Assembly: GCA_949299135.1 (NCBI GenBank)
Contig: CASFZG010000018.1
Location: forward strand, 1 to 50,109
Reading direction: 5' to 3'
Length of the DNA: 50,109 nt
DNA from: an uncultured Phascolarctobacterium sp.
GTDB lineage: Bacteria > Bacillota > Negativicutes > Acidaminococcales > Acidaminococcaceae
Shown here: in pieces, positions 2-16,207 of the stretch
Layout of the letters: the number at the start of each line of letters is the position of its first letter
Numbering within the stretch: position 1 is the stretch's first letter
Position numbers and translations under genes: made by a program
Notes under the pieces: generated by a model
Told to the model about the DNA's origin: nothing
The model's input: the letters and a program-made list of their open reading frames with translations, nothing else
The model's database searches: none

Positions 2-115
2 ATAGCTGCACTTTCTTTAATAGTAATGCTTGATGAAAAGTTTGAAAAAACTGTAAGCGGTGCACAGATTAAAGCGTTGGGAACCGTAAATGATATTTTA
101 GATTTGATGATATAA
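2..115 (+). CDS. Acyl carrier protein, C-terminal part (cut by window edge)
   Basis: An open frame enters from the left edge and ends with TAA at 113-115, giving 37 residues ending LGTVNDILDLMI. The text (DEKFEKTVSGAQIKALGTVNDILDLM) has the look of helices III-IV of an acyl carrier protein, where an acidic DxxFE segment is followed by a short VxDxxxxI helix. The phosphopantetheine serine would lie upstream of the window and cannot be checked. It sits 13 bases before a second, complete carrier protein, with a GGAGA ribosome-binding site in between, so both are probably on one transcript. It is too short to exclude other small helical proteins. Confidence 0.6.
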   Translation: MAALSLIVMLDEKFEKTVSGAQIKALGTVNDILDLMI

Positions 116-128
116 GGAGAATGATAAA

Positions 129-353
129 ATGGAAAAATTATATGCTCTTTTAGAAGAAATAAGGCCGGATGTAGATTTTCGTAATACTACTACTTTAGTA
201 ACAGATGGTTTTATAGATTCTTTTGATATTGTAACTATTATAGCAAGTATTGAAGCAGAGTTTTCAGTAGAAATACCGGTAGAAAACATGCTGCCTGAAA
301 ATTTTGAAAGTGCTGAGGCAATGATGAATATTATAAATGGGGCTGGAAAGTAA
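129..353 (+). CDS. Acyl/peptidyl carrier protein
   Basis: A 74-residue carrier protein of normal length. The motif GFIDSFD (residues 28-34) carries the serine expected to receive 4'-phosphopantetheine; the family form is D-S-[LF]-[DE]. It is followed by IEAEFSVEIPVENMLPENFES, typical of ACP helix III. Such proteins hold an acyl or aminoacyl group as a thioester while it is activated by an AMP ligase and passed to a transferase, both encoded just downstream (1340-2863 and the GNAT proteins). Its 3' end runs to within 5 bases of the next gene, indicating an operon. The start ATG follows GGAGAATGATAAA. Whether it is charged with a fatty acid or an amino acid cannot be told from sequence alone. 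Confidence 0.85.
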   Translation: MEKLYALLEEIRPDVDFRNTTTLVTDGFIDSFDIVTIIASIEAEFSVEIPVENMLPENFESAEAMMNIINGAGK

Positions 354-357
354 AGAT

Positions 358-1305
358 ATGTTTAAGATTATTAATAAAATCAAACTTTGGTATAGTCATC
401 AAAAATTAATAAAACAAGGTATTTTGATACCTGTTAATTCTTATGATGAATACCTTGCTTTGGTAAAAAAAGCTAAAGCCACTTCTGAACGCAAGCTGTT
501 TAGTAATTGTTATATGTTACCCGGTGAAATTAAAAGATTAATCACCTTAAAAAAATTTTATATAGTAAAAACTAATGGAGGATTGGTTTTTACAGATGAT
601 GAAGGCGGATATTATTATTTATTTTTATATGTAGATATGATGAAACCTTTGGTTTTACCAAAATTAGAAAAAGATATATTAGTTGAAAATGTTTATTATG
701 AAGGGCGTAAAACCGAATTACAAAGCAAATTTGAAGAATATGTTCAGTCTGCTGGATGTGTTTATTTAAATACGTATAATGCAGTTATTGATCGCCCTCA
801 ACTTAGTCCTGAAAAATATTGGCAAAATCTTGAAGTTTTGCAAAACTCTTTAGCCGCAGAGGGGAAAAAAATTTGTATACCATCAGAACATCAATTAAAA
901 GAATTCGAACAAATTTATCGCGATACTATTGATAAATTCGTTCAAAGAAGATACAGCAAAAAAGAAAGAAATGAACAAAGAAAATTAGGTTATTTACATT
1001 GCATTGATGATGAGAAGGGAAAAATTTATGCAATTCATATTACTGGTGTGCATGGTGGTGCAATTGCTACGAGAAAAGATTGTCAGGGTGGTATATATTC
1101 ACCAGGGTTGATGCTGTATGCTTTTAAAAAATATTATGAAGCTATGCCAAAAGATTTAGAAGAACAGAAAAAATATATGCAACCTAAAGGTATTGGAGGT
1201 TGGATAGCAGTAGATAATAAAGCCTCTTGGAGAATTCACAAAATGTTAGGCATGAAGGCTACTGTTAAATCTATGAATCAATTTGTTATTAAAGCTTCAA
1301 AATAG
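358..1305 (+). CDS. GNAT-like acyltransferase of unknown acceptor
   Basis: A protein of 315 residues from the ATG at 358, preceded at good distance by GGAAAG; an in-frame ATG at 337 lies inside the upstream ACP gene and has no ribosome-binding site. The N-terminal half is unfamiliar. The C-terminal part (KGIGGWIAVDNKASWRIHKMLGMKAT) resembles the last strand-helix of GNAT N-acyltransferases, where an Asn-x-x-[AS] turn and a lxxxlGF/M segment recur. With two carrier proteins and an adenylating ligase beside it, the likely job is moving a carrier-bound acyl or aminoacyl group onto an amine acceptor, perhaps an amino sugar. The GNAT call is moderate and the acceptor is a guess. Confidence 0.55.
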   Translation: MFKIINKIKLWYSHQKLIKQGILIPVNSYDEYLALVKKAKATSERKLFSNCYMLPGEIKRLITLKKFYIVKTNGGLVFTDDEGGYYYLFLYVDMMKPLVLPKLEKDILVENVYYEGRKTELQSKFEEYVQSAGCVYLNTYNAVIDRPQLSPEKYWQNLEVLQNSLAAEGKKICIPSEHQLKEFEQIYRDTIDKFVQRRYSKKERNEQRKLGYLHCIDDEKGKIYAIHITGVHGGAIATRKDCQGGIYSPGLMLYAFKKYYEAMPKDLEEQKKYMQPKGIGGWIAVDNKASWRIHKMLGMKATVKSMNQFVIKASK

Positions 1306-1339
1306 CAGTATTGAATAAAATTGTTTAGGGGAGAGAAAA

Positions 1340-2863
1340 ATGATTACTATTTTAGATTGTTTGGAAAACACTGCCGCAAAATTTCCTTATAATGTTATAA
1401 GTGAAGATACTAATAAAAAAATAACTTATAACGATTTTGTTAAAAACGCAAAATCTATTGGCAGTTTTTTGTGTAAATATCAAGTTACACGCAGCCCGAT
1501 TGCTGTTTTTATGGATAATTCGGTAGAATCATTGGAAGCAATGATGGGTGTGGTTTATAGTGGCAATTTTTATGTTGTTATCGATGCCTTAATGCCATTG
1601 GAAAGAATAAAAAACATTTTTTCTACTTTGAAGCCTGTAGCAGTTATATTTGATGAAAAGTGTAGAAAACAGGCTGAAAAATTAGAAATGGATGATAATA
1701 TTTATCTTTACAATGAGCTGGTGCAAAATAATGTAAATGAGGAAACGCTGCAAACCGTGCGTAGTAGAATGATTGATGCAGATCCTCTGTATGCATTATT
1801 CACTTCCGGTTCTACCGGAATGCCAAAAGGTACAGTGCTTACTCATTTAAGTGTAATGAAATACACCAAATGGTATGCTGAAACTTTTAATATTACTGAA
1901 AATACTATTTTTGGCAGCCAGACGCCGTTTTATTTTAGCATGTCTGTATCAACTATATTTTCTACAATCTATACAGGCGCTAAACTGGTAATTATTCCCA
2001 AACAACTTTTTTCTTTTCCGGTTAAATTAATAGAGTTTATGAATGAAGCAAAAATAAATACAATTTATTGGGTTCCTTCAGCCATGAATATGATTGCTAA
2101 TTTTAAAGCTTTAGATAATAAAGAACTTCCATATTTAAAAACGGTGCTTTTTGCAGGGGAAGCTATGCCGACAAAACAGCTGAACTACTGGAGAAAACAT
2201 TTGGCACCGGATACTTTATATGCTAATTTATTTGGGCCAACAGAGACAACGGATATAGCTGCGTATTATATTGTTGACAGGGAATTCCGTGATGACGAGC
2301 CTATTCCCATTGGTTCACATTGCAGTAATTGTGATGTATTCGTTTTGAAAGACGATGATACGTTAGCCGGAATTGGTGAAGAAGGAGAGTTATGTGTCAG
2401 GGGTTCTTTTTTAGCTTCCGGCTACTATGATAATCCTCAGAAAACTAAAGAAGTTTTTGTTCAAAATCCATTAAATCCTCATTATCGTGATATTATTTAC
2501 AGAACAGGTGACCTTGTTAAATATAATGATAGAGGAGAATTGGTTTATATTACAAGAAAAGATTTTCAGATAAAACATCAGGGGTACAGAATTGAGTTAG
2601 GCGAAATTGAAACAGCAGTAAGCGCAGTGAAAGGTGTATATGAATGCGGCTGCATTTATGATAGCGCTAAACAACTTATTGTACTTTTTTGCGCAGGAGA
2701 ATCCCTGACAGCAAAAGATATTTTGATAGGTGTGAAGGATTTACTGCCTAAATATATGACACCTAATAAAATATTTTTCTTGAATGATATGCCGCATAAT
2801 GCTAATGGTAAAATAGATAAAAAGAAATTGCAGGAAATATATCAGGCTGGTATAAAACAATGA
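1340..2863 (+). CDS. AMP-forming ligase / amino-acid adenylation domain (DltA-like)
   Basis: A stand-alone adenylate-forming enzyme of 507 residues, the size of D-alanine:carrier protein ligases such as DltA. Visible core motifs in order: LFTSGSTGMPKG (A3, phosphate loop, around residue 155), FGPTETTD (A5), YRTGDL (A7), HQGYRIELGEIE (A8 hinge) and NGKIDKKKL (A10 with the catalytic Lys). It should activate a carboxylic acid, most likely an amino acid, with ATP and load it onto the carrier protein encoded at 129-353. There is no fused condensation or thiolation domain. The start ATG is preceded by GGGGAGAG. It overlaps the next gene by 4 bases (ATGA), so they are translationally coupled. Substrate specificity was not inferred. 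Confidence 0.85.
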   Translation: MITILDCLENTAAKFPYNVISEDTNKKITYNDFVKNAKSIGSFLCKYQVTRSPIAVFMDNSVESLEAMMGVVYSGNFYVVIDALMPLERIKNIFSTLKPVAVIFDEKCRKQAEKLEMDDNIYLYNELVQNNVNEETLQTVRSRMIDADPLYALFTSGSTGMPKGTVLTHLSVMKYTKWYAETFNITENTIFGSQTPFYFSMSVSTIFSTIYTGAKLVIIPKQLFSFPVKLIEFMNEAKINTIYWVPSAMNMIANFKALDNKELPYLKTVLFAGEAMPTKQLNYWRKHLAPDTLYANLFGPTETTDIAAYYIVDREFRDDEPIPIGSHCSNCDVFVLKDDDTLAGIGEEGELCVRGSFLASGYYDNPQKTKEVFVQNPLNPHYRDIIYRTGDLVKYNDRGELVYITRKDFQIKHQGYRIELGEIETAVSAVKGVYECGCIYDSAKQLIVLFCAGESLTAKDILIGVKDLLPKYMTPNKIFFLNDMPHNANGKIDKKKLQEIYQAGIKQ

Positions 2864-3519
2864 AAATAATAACTTATATCTCTCCTCTTTTAGAGCAAAA
2901 TATGTATATTTTAGAAGAAAACAGCCATTGTATAGTTATAGATCCTTATTATGATGATAGCTTATCAGCTTTATTTAAAAATAAGGTAATTGATTTAATG
3001 CTGGTTACACATGAACATTACGACCATATTAGTGGAGTTAATAAATTAAAAGAACTATATGGTTGCAAATTATTGGCAAATGCAAAATGCAATAGTAATC
3101 TTCAAAATCCAACTAAAAATTTTTCAAAATATTTTGAAGCTTATTATGAATTTCAGGGAGATTTAAAAAAGCCTGATTTTGATTTTGACAGTAATTATTC
3201 TTGCTGTGCCGATAATGTTTTTGATGATAGTATTAAGTTTAAGTGGCAAAATAATGACATTTATATCAGAGAAGTTCCGGGACATAGCAAAGGCGGAAAT
3301 TTTATATTTTTAAATAATAAAATTTTGTTTTCAGGAGATATACTTTTGGATGAAAGTGTTCCTGCCGCAAAGTTTCCCGGAGGAAGCAAAAAAGCTTTTG
3401 AAGATACAACTTTACCTTATGTTAATTCTTTGCCTGCTGATATTGTTGTATACCCCGGGCATGGAGAAAAATTTATTTTAAGCGACTATTATGGTTATTT
3501 GGGCGAGAAGGAAAAATAG
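2860..3519 (+). CDS. Metallo-beta-lactamase-fold hydrolase (glyoxalase II-like)
   Basis: A 219-residue hydrolase with the dinuclear metal signature THEHYDH (HxHxDH, around residue 51), then GHSKGG, FSGDIL and YPGHGEKF, the other metal-ligand loops in family order. Members of this fold cleave thioesters (glyoxalase II) or other esters and lactams. In a carrier-protein cluster, an editing or releasing thioesterase acting on carrier-bound or CoA-bound intermediates is the natural guess, but it is only inference. The segment between residues 75 and 120, rich in Lys, Phe and Asp, is an insertion not typical of minimal glyoxalase II. The gene starts within the stop of the adenylation gene and its own stop overlaps the start of the following gene. 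Confidence 0.8.
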   Translation: MKIITYISPLLEQNMYILEENSHCIVIDPYYDDSLSALFKNKVIDLMLVTHEHYDHISGVNKLKELYGCKLLANAKCNSNLQNPTKNFSKYFEAYYEFQGDLKKPDFDFDSNYSCCADNVFDDSIKFKWQNNDIYIREVPGHSKGGNFIFLNNKILFSGDILLDESVPAAKFPGGSKKAFEDTTLPYVNSLPADIVVYPGHGEKFILSDYYGYLGEKEK

Positions 3520-4349
3520 TGTTAAAGATAATAGAATCTGTAGCAGAATACAGGGAGCTTTATAACAAATATGTGATATTAAATAAAGCAAAGGGTATTA
3601 CAAATTTTTTTGTCAATGAGAGGAATATTGCCGCATTTATTGATGATAAAAGAATTAAATTTGATGTAGTTGACGGCGTATTATTTTTATTTGTAGAAGA
3701 AAATGATTATTATAAAATGTATTTTTATGGCCTCACAGCAGAGGTAAAACATTTGCCTGCAGCTGATAAAAATATTTGTTGTGATATTTTTGACCAGAAA
3801 GAAAATGAAACACACGGCTTTTTATATAATTTGTTTTTGAATAACAATTTTGTATGTAAACAAAAATATGAACAGGTTCGTTTATGTTATGGTAAGTTGC
3901 ATAAGATAGCTTTAGGATATTTAGAAAAAAATAAATGGAAGTTACAAGAACATAATATGAGTATTGATAAGCTTAAATTAACGGATAAGTTGGAATTTGA
4001 GCAGCTTGTAATAGATAATATGGGAAAGTATGATGGCTTTTCTATTGAAGATCCTGAGTGGGAAGAACAGATTAAAAATAATAATGTTGTAGGAATATAC
4101 ATATTAGATAAATTGGTTGCGGCATATTATTTTACAGAAAAAGCCGGAAGGATAATTGTTGAAAAAAAATATCGTGGAAGAAATTTAAGTGTTCTTTTAC
4201 GAATGTATTTTGCAGCGCAAAAGCGTTGGTCAAATTCTTCTAAGAACCAGTATGGTTGGGTTGAAGAAAATAATATATCGTCAAAGAAAACTTTTGAAAA
4301 ATTGTTTGTAGTTTATACGGGAAAAATTAAGTATAGATATTTGAAATAA
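3519..4349 (+). CDS. GNAT family N-acetyltransferase-like protein
   Basis: A protein of 276 residues starting with GTG that shares bases with the upstream TAG. The C-terminal 120 residues (VVGIYILDKLVAAYYFTEKAGRIIVEKKYRGRN...) show the GNAT order: beta-strand pair, then a KKYRGRNLS turn matching the acetyl-CoA pyrophosphate loop Q/RxxGxG/A in degenerate form, a helix, and a NNISSKKTFEKL segment like the NxxAxxxYxxxGF end. The N-terminal half has no recognised motif. It is the last gene before a strong terminator, so it closes the carrier-protein operon. It could transfer the carrier-bound group, in parallel with the other GNAT-like protein at 358-1305. Their sequences are not obviously alike. 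Confidence 0.6.
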   Translation: MLKIIESVAEYRELYNKYVILNKAKGITNFFVNERNIAAFIDDKRIKFDVVDGVLFLFVEENDYYKMYFYGLTAEVKHLPAADKNICCDIFDQKENETHGFLYNLFLNNNFVCKQKYEQVRLCYGKLHKIALGYLEKNKWKLQEHNMSIDKLKLTDKLEFEQLVIDNMGKYDGFSIEDPEWEEQIKNNNVVGIYILDKLVAAYYFTEKAGRIIVEKKYRGRNLSVLLRMYFAAQKRWSNSSKNQYGWVEENNISSKKTFEKLFVVYTGKIKYRYLK

Positions 4350-4371
4350 TATGATTTATAAAATAATTTTT

Positions 4372-4425
4372 AAACAAACCAAAATAGATGGCTGGAAAAA
4401 TTCAGCCATCTATTTTGGTTTGTTT
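4372..4425. terminator. Long bidirectional intrinsic terminator
   Basis: Two 23-base arms (4372-4394 and 4403-4425) are perfectly complementary around an 8-base loop. On the plus strand the 3' arm ends in a T-containing tail; on the minus strand it also ends in T-rich sequence. It serves the convergent carrier-protein operon and the reverse-transcriptase gene. The last residues and the TAG stop of the RT gene lie inside the right arm. Confidence 0.85.
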
Positions 4426-5816
4426 AATGCTTTGGCAATTTTTTGTTTATGATTTTTTATTAACGAGTTTGTTTCTGGATCATTTAAATTTAATATTCGT
4501 TTAGCTTTTCTTGCATAATCAATAAATGTTTGAGTATGTTTACTTTTGGATTTCTTTTTGTTAAATGCATATACACGATATAAATTTGCTGCGGATATAC
4601 GATGCCCTTTGGATGATGTCCAATTGCATTTTGTTATGTTTTGGGCTTTTCTTTGCATTCGATAATAGTATTTGGTAATTGATTTAGGATTAATTTTTAT
4701 ATTTTTACCATCGAATATAAATCCTAAATATTTTATAGATGTGACTTTGTCCTGTGAATGATTGTATATATGATTATTTTGGTAAACATATAATTTTGTT
4801 TTATCTTGTTGTAAAGTAATTAAATTTGATTTATTATCAAAATATTCAGTAATAAAATCAATAAAAGAAGTTATTTCTGAATTAGTTTGACATGGAATAA
4901 TTATAATGAAGTCATCAGAATAGCGCATATATAAACCGTTTTTATTCTTTACAAACTCATTAATATCTTTATCAATTTCTATCATATAGACATTTGATAA
5001 TACAGCGCTTATTGGTGAACCTTGGGGAATACCTTTTGATAAGTCGTGTTTATGTATTTTATTTTTTAATTGTTTGAATTGTGATTTATTTAAAATGAGT
5101 TCTTTTGAATTTAATATACTTTTAATGCCGCGAGTAGTTATTTTTTTGCCAGATTGATTTACTATATCATTCCAGTCAACAGAAGAAAATTTTGTGATAT
5201 TTTTATAAACAGCGTAAAAGTCTTTCGGAAGTTTATTGCAATTAAGTATTTTACAAAGTTGCTGTTTTAAATATTTATGATCAAGATTGTCAAAAAAATC
5301 AGTGAAATCTCCAATTAGTATAAAAGCATTTTCTGATTCTTTTATTTTATCAAAAGCAAGTTTTGCAAAATGTATATTATTTTTACCTTTAAAACAATTT
5401 CTATAAGCGACCGGTATATTAGTAATATTATTTTTATCTAACCATGTATTATAAAATTCGTTTAGTAAAAAGCTATATCTTTGGTAAACACAACGATCAA
5501 GATGTGAGCAATAATATATTTCGCGTATTTTTTGCGGTTTATTTTTATTAATTTCATTTTTATTATATTTTCTTTGTTTATGAGTATAATGTATAAATGG
5601 ATAGAACCCGTGATGAATTATATTATTTCTATTCATAACATATTTGCGAATGGAAGGTTGGCGTAAAGAAGCGGTTTTTTTATCAAAATGAGAATAAAGT
5701 TTTAAGTCATTGTGTGTTAAAATAAAGTTTTTCCAATTTAAACAATAAACATAATTAGTGCATGAGCTACAAGAATTTAATTTATTACATTCAGCATATT
5801 TTTTTATTTCTTTCAT
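4410..5816 (-). CDS. Stand-alone reverse transcriptase, candidate defence-associated RT (DRT/UG class)
   Basis: An RT of 468 residues. Palm motifs are clear: GDFTDFFDNLDH (motif A, Asp at about 170), KGIPQGSPISAVLSNVYM (motif B, about 261-278) and YMRYSDDF (YxDD, about 296-303), then KYLGFIFDG. There is no maturase, HNH or thumb domain of group II intron type, no separate retron effector and no DGR-type SQ motif. The N-terminus carries Cys10, 16, 19 and 25 (C-x5-C-x2-C-x5-C), a possible zinc site. The text HHGFYPFIHYT, SHLDRCVYQRYSFLLNEFYN and PVAYRN recalls the unknown-group RTs that act alone in phage defence (DRT2-like), from memory only. The ATG follows AAGAGG on the minus strand. A promoter plus about 290 nt of hairpin-rich DNA precede it, as in RTs that copy an upstream ncRNA. 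Class assignment is tentative; RT identity is firm. Confidence 0.85.
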   Translation of the reverse strand: MKEIKKYAECNKLNSCSSCTNYVYCLNWKNFILTHNDLKLYSHFDKKTASLRQPSIRKYVMNRNNIIHHGFYPFIHYTHKQRKYNKNEINKNKPQKIREIYYCSHLDRCVYQRYSFLLNEFYNTWLDKNNITNIPVAYRNCFKGKNNIHFAKLAFDKIKESENAFILIGDFTDFFDNLDHKYLKQQLCKILNCNKLPKDFYAVYKNITKFSSVDWNDIVNQSGKKITTRGIKSILNSKELILNKSQFKQLKNKIHKHDLSKGIPQGSPISAVLSNVYMIEIDKDINEFVKNKNGLYMRYSDDFIIIIPCQTNSEITSFIDFITEYFDNKSNLITLQQDKTKLYVYQNNHIYNHSQDKVTSIKYLGFIFDGKNIKINPKSITKYYYRMQRKAQNITKCNWTSSKGHRISAANLYRVYAFNKKKSKSKHTQTFIDYARKAKRILNLNDPETNSLIKNHKQKIAKALNKPK

Positions 5817-5829
5817 ATGATAATCCTCT

Positions 5830-6118
5830 TAAAATGCAATAAGCCTGCTGATATGGGGGGCAACTTCCCTGAATCAGCAGGCAAAAACATGAACTATAGT
5901 TACCTATAATTGCCCAAAAATAACATTGCATTCCATGTTATAATAACAATGGAAAGGAGATGTTTCTTAATGTTAACGCTAATCGTTATCACCATCTTGA
6001 AACGAGCCAAGTTAACTGGCGTTCAAGCTATTCTTAGATGGGTAATATTACACATCGAAGAATTGCTTTATGCCTACTTGACAGAAATACTCCGCCCAAT
6101 TTGCCAATTGCAAATGGT
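5830..6118 (-). ncRNA. Predicted structured leader / template ncRNA of the reverse transcriptase
   Basis: Transcription from the minus-strand promoter at 6125-6153 would make an RNA of about 290 nt before the RT ribosome-binding site. It holds several inverted repeats: arms around 6037-6056 (GATG-n-GTAAT with its complement), a CTTGAAC/GTTTCAAG stem enclosing GCCA/TGGC near 6001-6027, a TAACG/CGTTA hairpin near 5975-5990, a CCAT-GTTA/TAAC-ATGG hairpin at 5933-5952 and a perfect 10-bp stem at 5843-5882. No good minus-strand reading frame crosses it. A long structured RNA directly upstream of and co-oriented with a lone RT is the arrangement of DRT2- and DRT9-type systems. Function as a template is inference; ends are approximate. 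Confidence 0.5.
5843..5882 (-). other. Stable 10-bp hairpin upstream of the RT start
   Basis: Arms 5843-5852 and 5873-5882 (GCCTGCTGAT and its exact complement) enclose a 20-base loop which can pair further (GGG with CCC). It lies 27 bases before the RT start codon at 5816. It could mark the 3' end of the ncRNA, act as the RT recognition element, or attenuate translation of the RT. Confidence 0.6.
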
Positions 6119-6125
6119 ATTATAA
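5970..6125 (+). other. Small plus-strand open frame antisense to the RT leader
   Basis: From position 5910 to the TAA at 6123-6125 one plus-strand frame is free of stops for 71 codons, long for such AT-rich DNA. Within it an ATG at 5970 has a good AGGAG (5954-5958), giving 51 residues rich in Leu, Ile and Val with alternating charged residues, which looks helical and hydrophobic. It is on the strand opposite the RT and the predicted ncRNA, and ends 45 bases before rfbB. It may be meaningless, a small protein gene, or a frame carried in the cDNA. No family recognised. Confidence 0.25.
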
Positions 6126-6153
6126 TAATAGCGCATATTAATCAAAAAGTCAA
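6125..6153 (-). promoter_or_regulatory. Sigma-A-type promoter for the RT leader
   Basis: On the minus strand TTGACT (6153-6148), a 17-base spacer and TATTAT (6130-6125) give a near-consensus promoter. The start of transcription would be near 6118, about 300 bases ahead of the RT start codon. Confidence 0.75.
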
Positions 6154-6170
6154 ATTCTTAAGGTGAAATC

Positions 6171-7190
6171 ATGAAACTCATCATTACCGGCGGGGCCGGT
6201 TTTATTGGCAGTAATTTTATATATTATGAACTTAAGCAGCATCCGGAAGACGAATTTATTTGTCTGGATAAGCTGACGTATGCAGGCAATTTAAGCAGCT
6301 TAAAGAGCGCAATGCAGCTGCCTAACTTTAAGTTTGTCAAAGGCGATATTGCTGACCGTGATTTTGTTTACAGTCTGTTTGAAGCAGAAAAGCCTGACGT
6401 TGTGGTAAATTTTGCGGCGGAGAGCCATGTTGACCGCAGCATTTTTGAGCCGGAGCTGTTTTTAAAAACAAATGTTATCGGCACGGGTGTGCTTATGGAT
6501 GCCTGCCGTAAATATGGCATTAAGCGTTATCATCAGGTAAGTACGGACTAGGTTTACGGTGATTTGCCGCTGGACAGGCCGGATTTGTTCTTTACGGAAA
6601 ACACGCCGCTGCATACTTCCAGTCCGTATTCTGCTTCTAAAGCCAGCGCAGATTTACTGGTGTTAGCATACCACCGTACTTATGGTTTGCCGGTGACGAT
6701 TTCCCGCTGCAGCAATAACTATGGTCCGTATCACTTCCCGGAAAAGTTGATTCCGCTGATGATTATCAATGCCCTGCATGATAAAGCATTGCCGGTATAC
6801 GGTGACGGAGCCAACGTGCGCGACTGGCTGTATGTGGAAGACCATTGCAGCGCGATTGATTTAATTATACGCCATGGGCGCGAGAGCGAAGTTTACAACG
6901 TAGGCGGGCATAATGAAAAGAGTAATTTGGACGTTGTGAAGATTATTTTAAAAGCGTTGGGCAAGAGCGAAGATTTGATTACTTTTGTGAAAGACCGCCC
7001 GGGGCACGACAGGCGTTATGCCATTGACCCGACGAAGATATATAGCGAGCTTGGCTGGCTGCCGCAGACGAAGTTTGAGGACGGTATTGCCAAAACGATT
7101 GAATGGTATTTAGCTAATAAGGATTGGTGGCAGGAAATCATCAGCGGCGAATACCAAAAGTATTATGAAAAAATGTATGGTGGTAGATAA
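6171..7190 (+). pseudogene. rfbB: dTDP-glucose 4,6-dehydratase interrupted by an amber codon
   Basis: Read as one frame this is a full-length (about 340 aa) RmlB/RfbB: N-terminal ITGGAGFIGSNF NAD-binding motif, the YSASKA catalytic Tyr-Lys region, and [11 protein letters not shown] in the second half. The enzyme makes dTDP-4-keto-6-deoxyglucose, the entry to rhamnose and other deoxysugars of surface polysaccharide. The frame is broken only at 6549-6551, where TAG replaces the Glu codon of the STDEVYG motif; reading resumes in the same frame as [11 protein letters not shown]. That Glu is catalytic in RmlB. One G-to-T change explains it. The rest shows no decay, so the mutation is recent, is a sequencing error, or the codon is read through. 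No rfbA, rfbC or rfbD is adjacent. Base composition is richer in GC than both flanks. Confidence 0.9.
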
Positions 7191-8400: not shown

Positions 8401-9534
8401 ATGATGAAATTTAATATTTTAATCAAGAATGGTCACGTTATTGATCCGGCTAATAATGTTGATGTAGTAAAAAATATTATGGTCAGCAATGGTTATATTG
8501 TTGATGACAATAGTGTGTTGCCTGATTTTGTTATTGATGCAGCAGGCAAATATGTTTTTCCTGGGCTTATTGATTATCATGCCCATGTATTTCCTAAAGG
8601 GACTGAGCTTGGTGTTGATCCAGATATAAGTATGCTTAATCAGGGGGTAACTTCTGTAGTAGATGCTGGCAGTGCAGGGGTAGGCTCTATGGAAATGTTT
8701 GTCGAAGATTTCATCTGCCGCTCTAAAATGAATATACAGGCTTATATAAATTTGTGTCCGGCAGGTTTGATAACGATGAAATATCATGAGGATTTTAATC
8801 CTAAATTTTGGGATGAAGATAGTTTGAGACAATTTTTTGAAAAATATCCTGATATTTTACTTGGATTAAAAATACGTATTAGTAAATCTATTTTTGGTTC
8901 ATTAGATTTTGAAGTTGTAGAAAAAGCCGTTACATTGGCAGATAAACTGAAGGTTAAATTATGTGTACATTCAACTGATCCTGTTGCAGGAATGGCAAAA
9001 CTGGCCAATGTTTTGCGTCCGGGAGATATTTTGGCACATTGTTATCATGGTACTGGCGATACAATTATTGGTGATGATGGGCATGTAATTCCTGAAATCA
9101 AAGAAGCCAAACAGCGTGGAGTTATTATGGATGCCGCTAATGGAAGTAACCATTGGAGTTTTGTAACAGCTGAAGCTGCTATAGCAGACGGATTTTATCC
9201 AGATGTAATTTCTACAGATTTAAGTTGCAAAACTTTGTATAAAGATCCTGTGTTTAGTTTGCCCTATGTAATGTCTAAATATTTAATGTTAGGAATGCCT
9301 TTAAACGAAATTATCAAAGCTGTAACAGTTACACCAGCTTCTTTGATGCATAATAAAAAAGAACTTGGTACCTTAAATGTTGGTGCAGAAGGAAATGTAA
9401 GTATATTTGACATAGCTGAAAAAGATATTACTTTCAGTGATACACAAAAACGTACAAGAAATGGCAAACAGGCATTGGTACCGCTTTTGACGATTTGTAA
9501 AGGAGAAGTTGTATACAGGTCTATGGCTTTTTGA
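8401..9534 (+). CDS. Amidohydrolase-superfamily metallohydrolase (dihydroorotase-like)
   Basis: A protein of about 377 residues beginning ILIKNGHVIDPANNVD and containing PGLIDYHAHVFP (HxH metal ligands, about residue 60), GLKIRIS (candidate carbamylated Lys), CVHSTDP and LAHCYHG (further His ligands) and STDLS (catalytic Asp). The tail SLMHNKKELGTLNVGAEGNVSIFD is typical of dihydroorotase, hydantoinase and deacetylase relatives. It should hydrolyse a C-N bond in a cyclic amide, imide or N-acyl compound. Two ATG codons in tandem (8401 and 8404) follow AGAGGGTG. It heads a probable operon with the lyase at 9583 and the CoA-transferase at 10562, so it may release the acid that these activate and cleave. 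The true substrate is unknown; it is not genuine pyrimidine PyrC by context. Confidence 0.75.
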   Translation: MMKFNILIKNGHVIDPANNVDVVKNIMVSNGYIVDDNSVLPDFVIDAAGKYVFPGLIDYHAHVFPKGTELGVDPDISMLNQGVTSVVDAGSAGVGSMEMFVEDFICRSKMNIQAYINLCPAGLITMKYHEDFNPKFWDEDSLRQFFEKYPDILLGLKIRISKSIFGSLDFEVVEKAVTLADKLKVKLCVHSTDPVAGMAKLANVLRPGDILAHCYHGTGDTIIGDDGHVIPEIKEAKQRGVIMDAANGSNHWSFVTAEAAIADGFYPDVISTDLSCKTLYKDPVFSLPYVMSKYLMLGMPLNEIIKAVTVTPASLMHNKKELGTLNVGAEGNVSIFDIAEKDITFSDTQKRTRNGKQALVPLLTICKGEVVYRSMAF

Positions 9535-9582
9535 TGAATTATTATTAATTGTGTAATAGTGTTACAGGATGGAGCGATAAAA

Positions 9583-10539
9583 ATGGATTTTGAATTACCA
9601 AAAAAAATAAAACTTTGTGAAGTTGGGCCGCGTGACGGTATTCAGAATGAAAAAATATATCCTTCAACTCAGGAAAAAATTGAACTTATTAATAAAGTCA
9701 GCGATGCAGGTTTTAAAGTAATAGAGGTTGGCAGTTTTGTTAGTCCAAAAGCAGTTCCCCAAATGGCTGATACTGATGAAGTGTTTAAGAAAATTAATAA
9801 AAAAGCTGGCGTCGAATACCGGGCTTTGGTTGCTAATTTAAAAGGAGTTGAACGTGCTGCGGCTTGTGGATGCAAAAAGGTTAAACTTAATGTATCAGCT
9901 AGTGTAGCGCATAATTTGGCTAATTTAAACTGTACACCTTCAGCTAGTGTAGATCGTTTTGCTTCCTGTGTAGAAAAAGCAAGAGAATCAGAGATTGGAA
10001 TTTCAGGTTCGATATCTATGGCTTTTGGTTCTCCTTGGGATAAAGAAATTAGTGTTGATAATGTTAAAAATATAGTAGAGGCATATTTAAAAGTAGGTGT
10101 AGATGAAATAAGCCTTTCTGATGCTTCAGGTATGGCTTATCCAACTCAGGTTTATGAAATGTGCTGTGAGATGCACAAAAGCTATCCCGAGGTAACGTGG
10201 TGGCTGCATTTTCATAATACAAGAGGACTTGGTCTTGCTAATATAATTGCCGGTATGCAGGCAGGTTTTGACAGATTTGATTCAAGTTTTGCCGGCGTTG
10301 GCGGTTGTCCGTTTGTTCCTGGTGCAGCAGGCAATGTTAGTACAGAAGATTTATTGCATATGTGCCTTGAATGTGGTATAGAAACAGGTATTGATATTGA
10401 TAAGATGCTTGATGTCGCTACTAAAGTTGTTGATATTGTAGGGCATAAAACAGACAGTTATTTATTGCGTGCAGGAAAGACGAGCGATTTGATAAGAGAA
10501 CTGCCTAAAGGTCAGATTAAAAATAATACACAAAAATAA
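9583..10539 (+). CDS. HMG-CoA-lyase-like aldolase
   Basis: A TIM-barrel lyase of 318 residues from the ATG at 9583 (GGATGGAG upstream). It has CEVGPRDGIQNE at the N-terminus (metal-binding Asp of the DRE-TIM family), HFHNTRG (HxH metal ligands) and GVGGCPFVPGAAGNVSTEDL, the Cys loop of 3-hydroxy-3-methylglutaryl-CoA lyases. Such enzymes cleave a 3-hydroxy-3-methylacyl-CoA into acetyl-CoA plus a ketoacid. Paired with a class III CoA-transferase next door, it would act on a CoA ester formed by that enzyme. In this organism leucine breakdown looks unlikely from context; a citramalyl-CoA-like or HMG-CoA-like substrate is possible. Codon use is AT-rich like its neighbours. Confidence 0.85.
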   Translation: MDFELPKKIKLCEVGPRDGIQNEKIYPSTQEKIELINKVSDAGFKVIEVGSFVSPKAVPQMADTDEVFKKINKKAGVEYRALVANLKGVERAAACGCKKVKLNVSASVAHNLANLNCTPSASVDRFASCVEKARESEIGISGSISMAFGSPWDKEISVDNVKNIVEAYLKVGVDEISLSDASGMAYPTQVYEMCCEMHKSYPEVTWWLHFHNTRGLGLANIIAGMQAGFDRFDSSFAGVGGCPFVPGAAGNVSTEDLLHMCLECGIETGIDIDKMLDVATKVVDIVGHKTDSYLLRAGKTSDLIRELPKGQIKNNTQK

Positions 10540-10561
10540 ATAGTATATAGGAGGAATTAAA

Positions 10562-11752
10562 ATGGGTAAGCAAGCGCTTGAAGGTGTAAGGGTACTTGAT
10601 ATAGCTACAGTTATTGCAGCACCATGGGCAGCAGGCCTTATGGCTGATTTTGGTGCAGAAGTAATCAAAATAGAAATGCCCGGGCGTGGAGATTCTTTCC
10701 GCGGAATGGGTCCGTTAAAAGATGGTGTAAGCATTCGCTGGCCATCAATGGGACGCAATAAAAAAAGTATAACACTTGATTTTCATTATGAAGAAGGTAA
10801 AAAGATATTTTTAGATTTGGTAAAAAAAAGTGATGTTGTAATTGAAAATTTCAAAACAGGTACTTTAGATAAGTGGGGGATTGGTGTAGACGTAATGCGT
10901 GAAGCTAATCCTGACATTATAGTTACTCATGTAACTGGTTATGGACAGACAGGACCGTATGCCCACCTGGCAGGCCTTGGACAGCCATTGCAGGCATTTT
11001 CAGGTTTAACTTATTTAATGGGATATCCTGACCGTCCGCCGGTAAGTATGCCGATGCCGCTGGCTGATTATGTAGCAGGGTTATATGCTGTTATTGGAAC
11101 AATGATGTCATTGTACTATCGTGACTGTTTGAAAGGTAAGGCGCAGGAAGTTGATGTAAGCCTTTATGAGGGATTATTCCGTATGGAAGAAAGTTTTGTG
11201 GCACAACTTGATGTTTTAGGGATTAATAAAGAACGTGCGCCTATTTCAACAGGAGCATCTTGTCCGATTGGTATTTTTAAAACCAAGGATAATCAATGGG
11301 TAATTTTGGTATGTAGCACGAATCCTGTATTTTGGCATTTATGCGATGCTATGGAGCGTCCGGATTGGTTGCCAAAATACGAAAAAGCAGCACAGCGTTT
11401 AGCAGATCCTGATCCTATTATGAATGCTGTGATTGATTGGATTGGGAGTAAAACATGGGATGAGCTTAAAGAAAGATGTGATAAGTTTGGCGTACCGGTG
11501 TGCAAAGTTATGAGCATGAAAGATATTTTTGCTGACCCGCAATATAAAGCCCGCAATAATATTCTTGAAGTGCCTTGTGAAGAGTTTGGTACCGTTAAAA
11601 TGCCTGGTATTTGTCCTGTACTTAGTGAAACACCCGGTGAGGTAAAATGGGCAGGTCAAAAACTTGGTTTTTCGAATGAAGAAATTTATAAAAGTCTGCT
11701 TGGTTTAAGTGATATCGAGATAGCAGAATTAAAATCCAAAAAAATAATTTGA
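10562..11752 (+). CDS. CaiB/BaiF family (class III) CoA-transferase
   Basis: A 396-residue protein with the full length and text of the CaiB family: LEGVRVLDIATVIAAPWAAGLMADFGAEVIKIE at the N-terminus, NKKSITLDFHYEEGKKIF, VVIENFKTGTLDKWGIG, and VTGYGQTGPYAHLAGLG; the Asp in PMPLADYVAGLYA is the expected acyl-anhydride nucleophile (about residue 170). It moves CoA between carboxylic acids. The start follows TAGGAGGAATTAAA. It directly follows the HMG-CoA-lyase-like gene by 22 bases, so the pair probably activates and cleaves one hydroxy acid. CoA donor and acceptor are not known; succinyl-CoA and acetyl-CoA are the usual donors. Confidence 0.88.
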   Translation: MGKQALEGVRVLDIATVIAAPWAAGLMADFGAEVIKIEMPGRGDSFRGMGPLKDGVSIRWPSMGRNKKSITLDFHYEEGKKIFLDLVKKSDVVIENFKTGTLDKWGIGVDVMREANPDIIVTHVTGYGQTGPYAHLAGLGQPLQAFSGLTYLMGYPDRPPVSMPMPLADYVAGLYAVIGTMMSLYYRDCLKGKAQEVDVSLYEGLFRMEESFVAQLDVLGINKERAPISTGASCPIGIFKTKDNQWVILVCSTNPVFWHLCDAMERPDWLPKYEKAAQRLADPDPIMNAVIDWIGSKTWDELKERCDKFGVPVCKVMSMKDIFADPQYKARNNILEVPCEEFGTVKMPGICPVLSETPGEVKWAGQKLGFSNEEIYKSLLGLSDIEIAELKSKKII

Positions 11753-11802
11753 AATATAATAATAAAATTTTAAAGTTGTAATTAAAAATATAATGATGAA
11801 AA

Positions 11803-11842
11803 GAATAGGCAATTTCTATATACAAATAGAAACTGCCTATTC
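11803..11842. repeat. Long inverted repeat between CoA-transferase and second LysR gene
   Basis: Arms 11803-11819 and 11826-11842 pair over 17 positions with a single G-T, around a 6-base loop. No T-run follows on the plus strand, while the minus-strand side is T-rich (TTTTCATC). It could still end transcription of the upstream operon, or be a regulator site. Confidence 0.7.
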
Positions 11843-11899
11843 TAAGTTAAAAACAATATGGTTAAACGTATTTGGGATTTTTAGTTAGGGGTAAAATGT

Positions 11900-12784
11900 A
11901 TGGAAGAAAGAGATTGGTTGATTTTAAAAGCACTTTATGAATATAAAAATATTACAAGAACAGCTAAGAAATTATATCTTTCTCAACCTACCTTGACTGC
12001 CCGTATTAAACATATAGAAGAAGATTTAGGTACAAAACTTATGTATAGAGGCAGCAAAGGTATTACTTTTACTGATACAGGTGAATATTCTGCGGAGTTT
12101 GCCGGTAAAATTTTAAATGAAATACGTATTTTTCGTGAAAATATTAATGATATGCAGAAAGACATATCTGGAATATTACGTATAGCGGCACCAGCTATTA
12201 TTGTTAAATATTATTTTCCGAAATTATTAGGTGAATTTAAAAAATTATATCCCAAAGTAAAATTTGATGTACATGTTGCCCGTAGTAGTGATGTGGAGTC
12301 TTTGGTTAATTCAATGGAAATACATTTTGGCTTCATCAGGAATGAAAATGATTGGCCGGAAGATGAACGGTTTATGTTGTCTAGCAATCATGTATGTGCT
12401 GTATCGGCAAAACCATTTAAATTGATAGATTTGCCCAATATGGTGCAAGTAGATTATGATACGGATAAGTATTATAAAAATATGCTTGATAATTGGTGGA
12501 AAGAAACATTTAACGATGCCCCTATTGTTGGAACTCGTGTAAGTAATCTTGATATGTGTAAAGAGATGGTATTTAACGGTCTTGGTTATGGTATATTACC
12601 TTCAATTTTGATTAAGGAATATCCACAATTATATTCTATTCCGTTAATACATAAAGATGGTACGATACTTTTACGCCGTACATGGTTAATTTATAAGAAA
12701 GAAACTATAAATTTACTTTTGCCACAAGCTTTTGAAAGATTTTTAAAAGAATCTGATTTTGATAGTTTTCAACGCAATTATTAA
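11900..12784 (+). CDS. LysR-family transcriptional regulator (second paralogue)
   Basis: A 294-residue LysR regulator with the N-terminal helix-turn-helix (ITRTAKKLYLSQPTLTARIKHIEEDLGTKLMYRG) and a C-terminal effector-binding domain ending NGLGYGILPSILIKEYP. It is a paralogue of the minus-strand regulator at 7292-8191; both share the unusual DW opening, YKNIT and SNLDM/ISKEMxFxG. Unlike the first, it points in the same direction as the genes it precedes (citD-citE-citF), 116 bases upstream of citD. A reasonable reading is that each paralogue controls one half of the locus, or that they respond to different acids. ATG at 11900 follows AGGGG. Confidence 0.9.
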   Translation: MEERDWLILKALYEYKNITRTAKKLYLSQPTLTARIKHIEEDLGTKLMYRGSKGITFTDTGEYSAEFAGKILNEIRIFRENINDMQKDISGILRIAAPAIIVKYYFPKLLGEFKKLYPKVKFDVHVARSSDVESLVNSMEIHFGFIRNENDWPEDERFMLSSNHVCAVSAKPFKLIDLPNMVQVDYDTDKYYKNMLDNWWKETFNDAPIVGTRVSNLDMCKEMVFNGLGYGILPSILIKEYPQLYSIPLIHKDGTILLRRTWLIYKKETINLLLPQAFERFLKESDFDSFQRNY

Positions 12785-12808
12785 AGCTGAACATACTATA
12801 TAGATATT

Positions 12809-12827
12809 TTTGATTGGCGTTATCAAA
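12809..12827. promoter_or_regulatory. Candidate LysR operator upstream of citD
   Basis: TTTGAT (12809-12814) and ATCAAA (12822-12827) form an inverted repeat around 7 bases, of T-N11-A type. A TATAAT at 12871-12876 with TTGAAA at 12846-12851 (19-base spacer, long) could be the citD promoter. Confidence 0.4.
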
Positions 12828-12900
12828 TATAACTATTTTCTTTTTTTGAAAATTCAAATTAAAATGAAAATATAATATAAAATATTGCGGAGGTGCCAAT

Positions 12901-13182
12901 ATGATTTTTAGAGGAACTGAATCTGTTGCAGGGACTAACTCTAAAAGTGATGTTCTTGTAACTGTAGAAATTACAACAAAAGATGGTATACAAATTGAGA
13001 TTATCAGTAAAGCTTTAAAAAAATATGGAGATAGCATCTGCGAAAGTGTAAAGGAAGTATTAAAAAATTTTAAAATAGAAAATGCCAATGTGCTGGTGGA
13101 AGATTTTGGAGCTCTTGATTTTGTTATTAGAGCAAGAACAGAAGCTGCTATAATGCGTAATATAGCACTAAAGGAGGCATGA
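12901..13182 (+). CDS. citD: Citrate lyase-type acyl carrier protein (gamma subunit)
   Basis: A 93-residue protein matching CitD: N-terminal AGTNSKSDVLVTVE, middle KKYGDSICESVKEVL, and FGALDFVIRARTEAAIMR near the end (family form D-G-A-L-x-x-x-x-x-A-R-x-E-A). The subunit carries the 2'-(5''-phosphoribosyl)-3'-dephospho-CoA arm of citrate or citramalate lyase. The site is odd: in the enterobacterial form AGTLES(S/G)D the modified Ser is two residues before Asp; here that place is Lys, with Ser on both sides. It follows GGAGGTG and is followed directly by citE. The genes that make and attach the arm (citG, citX) and the activating ligase citC are not in this window. Confidence 0.85.
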   Translation: MIFRGTESVAGTNSKSDVLVTVEITTKDGIQIEIISKALKKYGDSICESVKEVLKNFKIENANVLVEDFGALDFVIRARTEAAIMRNIALKEA

Positions 13183-13184
13183 AA

Positions 13185-14060
13185 ATGAATTCATTATATA
13201 GAACAATGTTATTTGTACCTGGTAATAATCCTAAAAAAATTATCAGTGCAGAAGTTTATGGTGCTGATTGCATAATTTATGATTTAGAAGATTCTGTTTC
13301 TGTTTTTGAAAAAGATAGTGCCAGGATTTTGGTAAAATATGCAATGCAGTATAATCGCCCAAATTGCAGAGTAGGCATTAGAATCAATCAGTCGGATACT
13401 CCATATTTCAAAGATGATGTAAAATGCATGGTGCCGTTATGTCCGGATTTTTTACGTTTACCTAAAACTGAATGTGCTGAGGATATTATAAATTTGGATA
13501 ATTTAATTACTGAATTGGAAAAAGAGCATGGTATTTCGGAAGGTACTATTAAAATAGTTGCCAGTATAGAAAATGCTTTAGGTGTGATAAATTCTTATAA
13601 AATAGCATCTGCATCACATAGAATGTTGGCAATAGGCCTTGGTGCTGAGGATTTTAGAACAGAAATGGGAATGGAAAGAAGCGAAACAGCAGAAGAAATT
13701 TTATTTGCAAGAAATCTAATTGCTTTAAATGCACATGCTGCCGGTATTAAAGCTATGGATTATGTCTATAGCAATATAAAAAACGATGAAGGGTTCCGCA
13801 AAGACACTATGCTTGGTAAAAAACTTGGCTATTCAGGCAAATCTGTCGTACATCCGCAACAAGTGGCCATTGTGCATGAAGTTTATACTCCGTCTGACAA
13901 AGAAATAGAAAATGCTAAAGCTGTATTTGCTGCTTATGAAGATGCTTTGAAAAATGGATCAGGTGTTACTTCATTAAATGGAAAGATGATTGATAAGCCA
14001 ATGGTAACAAGAGCGATGTCAGTATTATCTTTTGCAAAGGCAGCAGGGATGGAGGTTTAA
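13185..14060 (+). CDS. citE: Citrate lyase-type beta subunit (citryl-ACP lyase)
   Basis: A protein of 291 residues from the ATG at 13185, which is 7 bases after AAGGAGG; an ATG at 13179 is too close to that site. It has RTMLFVPGNNPKK, IIYDLEDSV (Mg-binding Asp/Glu), RINQSDTPYFKDD, RLPKTE, GLGAEDFRTEMGMER and GKSVVHPQQV, all conserved in CitE. The enzyme splits citryl- or citramalyl-ACP into acetyl-ACP and oxaloacetate or pyruvate. It lies between citD and citF with almost no gaps, so the three form one complex. Sequence alone does not separate citrate from citramalate as substrate; the HMG-CoA-lyase-like and CoA-transferase genes nearby make a methyl-branched hydroxy acid plausible. Confidence 0.88.
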   Translation: MNSLYRTMLFVPGNNPKKIISAEVYGADCIIYDLEDSVSVFEKDSARILVKYAMQYNRPNCRVGIRINQSDTPYFKDDVKCMVPLCPDFLRLPKTECAEDIINLDNLITELEKEHGISEGTIKIVASIENALGVINSYKIASASHRMLAIGLGAEDFRTEMGMERSETAEEILFARNLIALNAHAAGIKAMDYVYSNIKNDEGFRKDTMLGKKLGYSGKSVVHPQQVAIVHEVYTPSDKEIENAKAVFAAYEDALKNGSGVTSLNGKMIDKPMVTRAMSVLSFAKAAGMEV

Positions 14061-14061
14061 A

Positions 14062-15591
14062 ATGAATAGGAATTTAATTGAAAAAATTCGTAAAATTTCC
14101 GGTTTTGAAGATAAGGAAATGTTCCGAGGAGCATTTGAAGTTGTGCCTGTTGGCAAAAGAGCATCCAGACCTTTAAAACAATTTAAACCTAAGAATAATA
14201 AAGTTATGCCTCTTGAAAAAGCTATTGATGCAGTTGGCTTAAGAGATGGAATGACCATTTCATTTCATCATTGCCTGCGTAATGGCGATTTGGTTATGCA
14301 AAAAGTTATTAAAGTGATTGCGGATAAAGGTATTAAAAATTTAACACTATCTGCAAGTTCTTTAAGTCTTGTACAGGATGCGTTGCTGCCTTATCTTGAA
14401 AATGAAACTATTACGGCAATTGATACGAGCGGGGCGAGGGGTAAAATTGGTAAATTTATACAAAGTAATCGTTTGCAAAAGCCGGCTATATTTAGAACCC
14501 ATGGAGGCAGAGCAAGGGCTATTGAAACAGGTGAGTTACATATTGATGTAGCCTTTATAGCTGCACCGGCTTGCGACATATATGGTAATATTAACGGGGT
14601 GCAGGGAAAATCAGCTTGTGGTTCATTAGGTTATGCAATGCCTGATTCAGAATATGCTGATCATGTAATTGCTGTTACTGATGGTTTATCGCAGATTCCT
14701 TTAGATTATGTAAGTATTTCTCAGACTAAAGTAGATTATGTATCTGAAATTGATGATATTGGTGATCCTGCTGGAATAAGTACAGGTTCTATTAGAATTA
14801 GCAAAAGCCCTACTGAACTTGTTATAGCAAAATATGTTGCTGATGTTATCAAGTATAGCGGTGTTTTTAAAGACAATATGATTTTTCAATTTGGAAGTGG
14901 TGGAATTTCCATTTCGGCAGCGGATTTTTTAAAAAAGGAAATGGAAAAGCAAAATATCAGAGCTGCAGCTGGTATAGGAGGAGCTACAGGTTATTTAGTT
15001 GATATGTTAGAACATGGCTATATTAAAACATTTTTTGATCCTCAGGATTTTGACCAGTTAGCAATACGTTCTTTATATAATAATAGAAATCATCATGAAA
15101 TATCTGCTTCTGATTATGCGAATCCGTTTAATGGAAATCCGTATGTAAATTTACTTGACGTTGCTGTTTTAAGTGCCACAGAGATGGATGTTAATTTTAA
15201 TGTTAATGTATTAACAGATTCTTATGGTAGATTGATGGGGGCACCTGGAGGACATCCTGATGCAGCAGCTGGTGCTGATGTAACAATTGTTGCGATGCCT
15301 CTTTTACGTGGCAGATTACCGATGATTTTGGATAATGTTCAGACGGTGGTAACGCCGGGAGAAACTGTAGATGTTGTTGTAACTGAATATGGCATAGCTG
15401 TTAATCCAAAAAGAGATGACTTGTACAATAATCTTAAAAAATCAAATTTGCCGGTAGTTAGCATTGAAGAATTATATATTAAGGCGCAAAAATTAGCTGG
15501 GAAAGCGGCACCTTTGGAACATGGCAATAATATTTGCGGTATTGTAGAATATAGGGATGGAACAATTATAGATGTTATTTATGATATTTAA
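14062..15591 (+). CDS. citF: Citrate lyase-type alpha subunit (ACP transferase)
   Basis: A 509-residue subunit from the ATG at 14062, preceded by GGAGG at 14051-14055. Typical CitF text: LRDGMTISFHHCLRNGD, ITAIDTSGARGKIGKFIQ, RTHGGRARAIETGELHIDVAFIAAPACDIYGN, GVQGKSACGSLGYAMPD, and GAPGGHPDAAAGADVTIVAMPL. It exchanges acetate on the carrier arm for citrate or a related acid. Its length matches the family. It follows citE by one base, so it is translationally coupled, and it is followed 29 bases later by an HD-domain gene. Confidence 0.9.
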   Translation: MNRNLIEKIRKISGFEDKEMFRGAFEVVPVGKRASRPLKQFKPKNNKVMPLEKAIDAVGLRDGMTISFHHCLRNGDLVMQKVIKVIADKGIKNLTLSASSLSLVQDALLPYLENETITAIDTSGARGKIGKFIQSNRLQKPAIFRTHGGRARAIETGELHIDVAFIAAPACDIYGNINGVQGKSACGSLGYAMPDSEYADHVIAVTDGLSQIPLDYVSISQTKVDYVSEIDDIGDPAGISTGSIRISKSPTELVIAKYVADVIKYSGVFKDNMIFQFGSGGISISAADFLKKEMEKQNIRAAAGIGGATGYLVDMLEHGYIKTFFDPQDFDQLAIRSLYNNRNHHEISASDYANPFNGNPYVNLLDVAVLSATEMDVNFNVNVLTDSYGRLMGAPGGHPDAAAGADVTIVAMPLLRGRLPMILDNVQTVVTPGETVDVVVTEYGIAVNPKRDDLYNNLKKSNLPVVSIEELYIKAQKLAGKAAPLEHGNNICGIVEYRDGTIIDVIYDI

Positions 15592-15620
15592 TAAATATAT
15601 TAATGAAAGAGGTGTTAAGT

Positions 15621-16169: not shown

Positions 16170-16207
16170 TTTTATAATTTTTATAAAATATAAGGTGGTG
16201 AACACAG

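Follow-up and report, generated by a model that had tools for sequence, protein, structure and literature searches.

What is made by the compact group of carrier-protein and acyl-transfer genes at the edge of contig CASFZG010000018.1 of an uncultured Phascolarctobacterium sp., and do these genes form a pathway of their own? The window, i.e. the whole stretch of 50,109 nt that was analyzed, is the start of this contig (C18) in a genome assembly of 1.87 Mb and 40 contigs (GCA_949299135.1). An earlier description made from the letters of the window (the sequence-only reading) had seen tandem acyl carrier proteins (ACPs), an adenylating ligase, a metallo-beta-lactamase-fold (MBL) hydrolase and two GNAT-like proteins, encoded by five complete genes and one partial gene that overlap or nearly touch, and had proposed that they could decorate an amino sugar of a surface polysaccharide. 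We found that these six genes are the downstream end of a 17-gene operon, which probably serves to make an N-acylated bacillosamine-type sugar and to export it for a variable surface glycan.

Our analysis agreed with the described gene content. All six frames lie on the plus strand, and the spacing from ACP2 through GNATb is -17, 34, -4 and -1 bases. Pfam recognized AMP-binding in the ligase (207.7 bits), Lactamase_B in the MBL hydrolase (53.7 bits) and PP-binding in ACP2 (22.7 bits, cutoff 20.8), while the ACP1 fragment stayed below the latter cutoff with 16.4 bits. Neither GNATa nor GNATb reached the cutoff of any Pfam or NCBIfam model, and both were assigned from structure models of the tandem-GNAT type (see below). 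In G006, a genome of another genus of the same family, the window genes are kept in identical order with 61–85% protein identity, so the set has not come together by chance.

The window begins inside ACP1. Its positions 1–28 are identical to C2:163075–163102, the final 28 bases of contig C2, and joining C2 and C18 gives an intact 72-aa open reading frame (ORF) for ACP1 (MELQEKLALIEEVLDVEEGSLKPETELADVDEWDSIAALSLIVMLDEKFEKTVSGAQIKALGTVNDILDLMI), whose 5' part covers -103 to 1 in window numbering; its counterpart in the corresponding position of G006 is 84.5% identical. G006 carries all 17 genes, from PglF to GNATb, collinear on a single 797-kb contig, with identities of mostly 61–90% (56% for the aminotransferase and 45% for SDR2). 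Since ACP1 is restored and the order is found uninterrupted in G006, the adjacency of C2 and C18 is well supported by sequence. The joined operon reads PglF - PglE-like - PglC - LbH - Wzm - Wzt - PglD/VioB - KS1 - KS2 - SDR1 - SDR2 - ACP1 - ACP2 - GNATa - ligase - MBL - GNATb, with a spacing of -17 to 61 bases between genes (Table 1). The leftward extension that the sequence-only reading had recommended thus led to the PglF-to-SDR2 genes, including both ketosynthase (KS)/SDR and glycan genes. Its statement that no ketosynthase is present holds inside the window but not for the operon: two KASIII-family genes and two SDR genes lie upstream on C2, and the apparent absence was an artefact of a contig that begins inside ACP1. 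A ligase-only pathway without ketosynthase is therefore ruled out, as the cut had hidden the upstream half.

The upstream genes carry the proposed function. Family matches were found for PglF (Polysacc_synt_2, 422 bits), the PglE-like aminotransferase (DegT, 312 bits) and PglC (Bac_transf, 224 bits), and the PglD/VioB-like protein scored just below cutoff with the NeuD/PglB/VioB model (159.4 versus 160.8 bits). The best PDB matches pointed in the same direction, namely sugar aminotransferase structures for the aminotransferase (E 1.7e-89), the diNAcBac-1-P transferase for PglC (E 6e-81, compared to 2e-36 for WbaP) and VioB for the acyltransferase (E 2.5e-23), so that PglF, PglE, PglC and PglD homologues are all found in one operon. 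Wzm and Wzt form an ABC-2 glycan exporter. KS1 and KS2, which are 35% identical to each other, belong to the KASIII family with Cys-His-Asn intact, and SDR1 and SDR2 are ketoreductase-like with an intact Tyr-Lys motif; a dedicated ACP, two ketosynthases and a ketoreductase are thus all present. The sharing of one operon by the PglF, PglE, PglC and PglD-like genes, the exporter and the KS/SDR genes strongly supports acylation of an amino sugar, the decoration that had been suggested.

The ligase links this acyl line to another kind of system. It exceeds the cutoff of the amino-acid-adenylation model TIGR01733 (322 bits, cutoff 317.4) and falls far below that of the DltA equivalog model (291.1 bits, cutoff 559.85). 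The pocket check proposed by the sequence-only reading gave, from alignments, the code S-M-S-Y-L-A-L-D-I-K in the GrsA-PheA numbering. The A4 Asp (position 235) of adenylation domains normally binds the alpha-amino group; here it is replaced by Ser200 (FSMS for FDxS), and Ser also occurs in the ligases of G006 and of G021, a further genus of the family. Because this Asp is lost, the pocket sequence suggests that the activated acid probably has no alpha-amino group; the lost Asp is the only interpretable feature, as none of the sequences compared offered a reference with this code. A scan of 84,980 genomes yielded 80 ligase relatives, with longest-ORF calls as gene models. Ser occupies the A4 place in 28 of them, 25 of which have an MBOAT gene within six genes. 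In a maximum-likelihood tree the ligases from our genome, G006 and G021 (100/100) nest inside a Ser clade (30 rows, 99/93) that otherwise consists of Dlt-like ligase-ACP-MBOAT cassettes with the identical pocket code, whereas the ligases of KS/SDR-type glycan loci elsewhere (G014, G026, G029, G047, L087, L098) keep the Asp and take other positions. We infer from these sequences that the operon unites a KASIII/SDR acyl line and a ligase that goes back to Dlt-like ancestors. The code SMxYLALDIK is common to about 30 loci, and a single substrate assignment could serve the whole clade. A further group of ligases with Val at A4 (FVMS; L079, L083, L086) also adjoins MBOAT genes, and its sequence may represent another non-alpha-amino pocket.

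The two carriers both keep the DS phosphopantetheine site. In the 80 relative loci, 53 of 60 ACP2-like ORFs adjoin a ligase, a GNAT-family protein or an MBOAT, and four of seven ACP1-like ORFs, a small number, adjoin KS/SDR genes. These neighbour counts lend mild support to a division in which ACP1 serves the KS/SDR enzymes and ACP2 the ligase. The MBL hydrolase matches glyoxalase II/MBL structures in sequence and has complete metal motifs (THEHYDH 50–56, GHS 141, GD 159, GHG 200).

For better evaluation of the two GNAT-like proteins we relied on AlphaFold (AF2) models, with a mean pLDDT of 92.8 for GNATa and 89.8 for GNATb. Tandem GNATs head the Foldseek list for GNATa, and GNATb aligns with the mycothiol synthase MshD over 247 residues (VIA-align Z 16.0, rmsd 4.7). 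Two GNAT domains in tandem, as in MshD (2c27), MAB_4324 (7q3a) and the clavulanate-pathway tandem GNAT (2wpx), extend across the whole model, although sequence identity to these is only 9–10% and the context here is that of a ligase and ACPs. GNATa and GNATb are paralogues, which an iterated hidden Markov model (HMM) joins to about 20 proteins in relative loci; 12 of 24 aligned family members match Acetyltransf_1 of Pfam, while the window members match no model directly. N57, W289 and N294 of GNATa are invariant or nearly so in the family alignment. On the basis of these models, both belong to an uncharacterized tandem-GNAT family of the GNAT superfamily with a putative role in acyl transfer, found beside ligase/ACP pairs in several phyla. 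Family members usually adjoin a ligase or an ACP; since the family was assembled from loci drawn in by the ligase, this co-occurrence arises partly by construction. The search for the same gene order elsewhere, which had also been proposed, found besides the identical order in G006 a GNAT-ligase-MBL-GNAT order in L076 (uncultured bacterium) and L078 (Lachnospiraceae) at 25–49% identity, and the window order is therefore not unique. These two loci are large, of the Lachnospiraceae type, and contain several ligases, together with ACPs, tandem GNATs, an MBL, a WcbI-like gene and a ketopantoate-reductase-like protein.

We propose the following route. By family membership, PglF and the aminotransferase would convert UDP-GlcNAc to UDP-4-amino-4,6-dideoxy-GlcNAc. 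Malonyl units may be assembled on ACP1 by KS1/KS2 and SDR1/SDR2 into a short acyl chain of the beta-hydroxy or 3,5-dihydroxy type, by analogy with Flavobacterium psychrophilum (see below). The ligase would, as its family does, load ACP2 with a small carboxylic acid of the class indicated by the lost Asp, and the MBL hydrolase could act as an editing enzyme that clears mis-charged carriers. PglD/VioB and/or the tandem GNATs may then move acyl groups onto the 4-amino group of the sugar or onto the chain. PglC would place the sugar phosphate on undecaprenyl phosphate, followed by export through Wzm/Wzt, and the end point would be a strain-variable surface glycan. More tentative is the full two-carrier chemistry, in which a Dlt-derived non-amino-acid ligase charges ACP2, the KASIII/SDR line works on ACP1, and the GNATs use carrier-bound rather than CoA-bound acyl groups for the 4-amino sugar or the growing chain; we consider this possible, with the balance somewhat against it. 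If true, the soluble GNATs would be the counterpart of the membrane MBOATs in the cassette. That they stand in for MBOATs is a possibility here, but GNAT-family and MBOAT genes occur together in eight relative loci, which argues against replacement as a simple rule.

Several points weigh against the proposed N-acylated sugar. The 17 genes hold no glycosyltransferase except the PglC-like initiating transferase. The R-group of F. psychrophilum is made without ligase, MBL or GNAT, so the analogy leaves their role unexplained, and the likeness to its wfp genes and to the vio genes of Pseudomonas syringae comes from gene descriptions. Finally, the join of C2 and C18 consists of a 28-base overlap and synteny. 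In G021, three near-identical ACP1 genes stand in tandem, repeated with a period of 238 bases (L038, G021:C7, 57619–58319), and the assembly of our genome also breaks inside ACP1; in view of these copies, more than one ACP1 could be present at our contig break.

Two alternatives compete with the N-acylated sugar. In the first, the ligase and ACP2 play a Dlt-like role, charging an acid which an acyltransferase links, in a step that follows export, to a glycan or a polymer of the teichoic type, independently of the KS/SDR genes. The clade around the ligase speaks for it, being mostly MBOAT-adjacent with an identical pocket code, and the MBOAT was confirmed by Pfam in two clade loci. However, the 17 operon genes include no MBOAT, the genome has a single MBOAT, on contig C16, which neighbours an AlgJ/SGNH-like gene but neither a ligase nor an ACP, the candidate transferases in our locus are soluble GNATs, and gene order binds the ligase to the KS/SDR genes in three genera. 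We regard this role as unlikely. About as unlikely, in our judgement, is a product that is secreted as a small lipid or metabolite, either a lipid-linked acyl-amino sugar or a diffusible acyl compound, and forms no part of a polymer. Such a product would fit the lack of polymerizing glycosyltransferases in the 17 genes, a lipid-linked monosaccharide would need nothing beyond PglC and an ABC exporter, and GNAT/ligase/MBL sets also occur in the multi-ligase loci with a WcbI-like gene (L076, L078). On the other hand, the locus occurs where the sister species G003 has an ordinary rhamnose-type glycan locus, and in G014, G026, G029 and G047 it is found among glycan genes; the host, which carries Wzy_C-type proteins, is a diderm, as its LpxC indicates. 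A plain Dlt operon is ruled out by the missing MBOAT and the missed DltA cutoff; the conventional upstream context that would have made the window genes the end of a non-ribosomal peptide synthetase, polyketide synthase or Dlt operon was not found, as no modular synthase and no MBOAT is present in the operon, although the ligase descends from Dlt-like cassettes.

The preferred reading, an operon for an N-acylated surface sugar, also agrees with the presence of LpxC, Wzy_C-type proteins and AcpS in the genome and with the variability of the site. In G021, KS1-KS2-SDR1-SDR2 follow RmlA/RmlC-like, Wzm, Wzt and PglD-like genes and a different aminotransferase (20% identical), and a separate contig carries the three ACP1 copies, ACP2, GNATa, ligase, MBL and GNATb; the contig ends there could belong to a mobile element. 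Because different sugar genes precede the set in G021, the KS1-to-GNATb genes behave as a portable acyl cassette, which suggests that acyl-group making is swapped between UDP-bacillosamine-type and dTDP-sugar-type glycan loci within one bacterial family. The ligase was found in none of five other genomes of the same genus, and among 380 genomes of the class GNATa is confined to three genera, the same three that hold close KS2 homologues. The same chromosomal slot of G003, which follows a VTT-like gene and pnp, is taken up by a rhamnose-type glycan locus; this locus includes an intact rmlB that shares 98% identity with the rmlB of the window in its C-terminal part. The window copy is interrupted by a single in-frame TAG (6549–6551) and is, given this stop and the intact copy in a different locus at the same slot, best read from its sequence as a remnant of an older allele. 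No rmlB lies beside the operon in G006, and the link to rfbB/rmlB as a pathway part, which the sequence-only reading had drawn, is thereby ruled out.

Table 1. Operon genes and neighbouring features in window numbering (negative positions lie on contig C2)
Feature	Position	Strand	Basis or remark
PglF-type dehydratase	-10308		upstream, on C2
DegT (PglE-like) aminotransferase	-8445		upstream, on C2
PGT (PglC-like)	-7309		upstream, on C2
Hexapeptide transferase (LbH)	-6704		upstream, on C2
Wzm	-6085		upstream, on C2
Wzt	-5293		upstream, on C2
PglD/VioB-like acyltransferase	-4535		upstream, on C2
KS1	about -3892		upstream, on C2
KS2	-2768		upstream, on C2
SDR1	-1671		upstream, on C2
SDR2	-919		upstream, on C2
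ACP1	-103		spans C2/window break
ACP1, 3' part	2..115	+	DS(I) phosphopantetheine site on C2 side of break
ACP2, 74 aa, Ser in DSFD	129..353	+	PP-binding; ligase-accompanying ACP type in relatives
GNATa, 322-aa tandem-GNAT protein, putative acyltransferase	337..1305	+	AF2 model, Foldseek, family alignment
DltA/NRPS-A-type adenylating ligase, 507 aa	1340..2863	+	TIGR01733, alignments, tree
MBL-fold, glyoxalase II-like hydrolase, 219 aa, putative editing thioesterase	2860..3519	+	Lactamase_B, metal motifs
GNATb, 276-aa tandem-GNAT protein, GNATa paralogue	3519..4349	+	AF2 model, structure alignment, HMM link
Inverted repeat 3' of operon	4370..4427	.	4370-4394 = reverse complement of 4403-4427
DRT2, 468-aa reverse transcriptase	4410..5816	-	between GNATb and rmlB
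Folding region upstream of DRT2 start	5817..6175		mainly 5910-6125
rmlB	6171..7190	+	single in-frame TAG
Apparent citrate-lyase-type and organic-acid gene group	8401..17602		downstream; translations only

The inverted repeat may terminate transcription of both GNATb and the DRT2 gene, which are convergent. The DRT2 protein matches anti-phage Drt2 models, in PADLOC with E 1e-128 and in NCBIfam with 366.9 bits, slightly below the cutoff of 390, and its gene is absent at the corresponding place in G006. Upstream of its start we observed strong folding, with a minimum free energy of -94.6 kcal/mol for 330 nt, calculated without a shuffle control, and the opposite strand has a 71-aa open frame that continues without a stop in head-to-tail repeats; the region might supply the template, a non-coding RNA, for a DRT2 system of the 'neo' type. 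Further downstream, the apparent citrate-lyase-type and organic-acid genes are accompanied by LysR regulators.

When the operon is compared to known systems, the closest described pathway, as judged by analogy, is that for the R-group of the F. psychrophilum O-polysaccharide. This polymer contains D-Qui2NAc4NR with R = 3,5-dihydroxyhexanoyl; the structure was determined by nuclear magnetic resonance and the pathway was predicted from genes, with pglE, pglF and wfpB-wfpG assigned to the R-group (PMC6519341). PglF/PglE, a PglC homologue, a dedicated ACP, two 3-ketoacyl-ACP synthases, a 3-ketoacyl-ACP reductase and a PglD-type acyltransferase are common to both, whereas the R-group genes as described include no AMP ligase, second ligase-type ACP, MBL or tandem GNATs, and a Wzy polymerase takes the place that Wzm/Wzt have here. 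The viosamine island of P. syringae (vioA, vioM, vioT, vioS, vioB, vioR, acp), in which a vioR mutant loses modified viosamine (PMC3927599), shares the combination of aminotransferase, KASIII, ketoacyl reductase, ACP and a VioB-type acyltransferase acting on a 4-amino sugar, but it places dTDP-viosamine on flagellin with one KS, one reductase and one ACP, and has no ligase, MBL or GNAT. The earlier statement that no named pathway has exactly this set is hence literally true for the 17 genes, but their front half matches the wfp genes and resembles the viosamine island. An AMP-dependent ligase and an ACP in a surface-glycan locus, as found here, are also known from the RfbK/RfbL tetronate pathway of Vibrio cholerae O1, in which the activation of 2,4-dihydroxybutanoic acid is ascribed to RfbL (PMC12208996, citing Morona 1995), and from the Aeromonas group II flagellar glycosylation island (PMC7874193); the passages of these two sources on the loci describe no paired KASIII, MBL or tandem GNATs. 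DltABCD and the clostridial Dlt-like cassettes (e.g. L050, ligase-ACP-MBOAT-348 aa) share a DltA-type ligase and a small ACP with the operon, and the clostridial cassettes also the ligase clade and pocket code, while the operon differs from DltABCD in having no MBOAT/DltD, a DltA equivalog score far below cutoff and Ser for the A4 Asp. Cj1297-Cj1309 of Campylobacter jejuni, with a similar ACP/FabH/ligase set, may offer a further lead. Taken together, the analogy suggests that the front half of the operon is a further member of the F. psychrophilum kind, of which the ligase/MBL/two-GNAT module makes it a variant. More generally, the serotype is set in part by acyl groups on 4-amino sugars, which the plant pathogen P. 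syringae carries on its flagellin.

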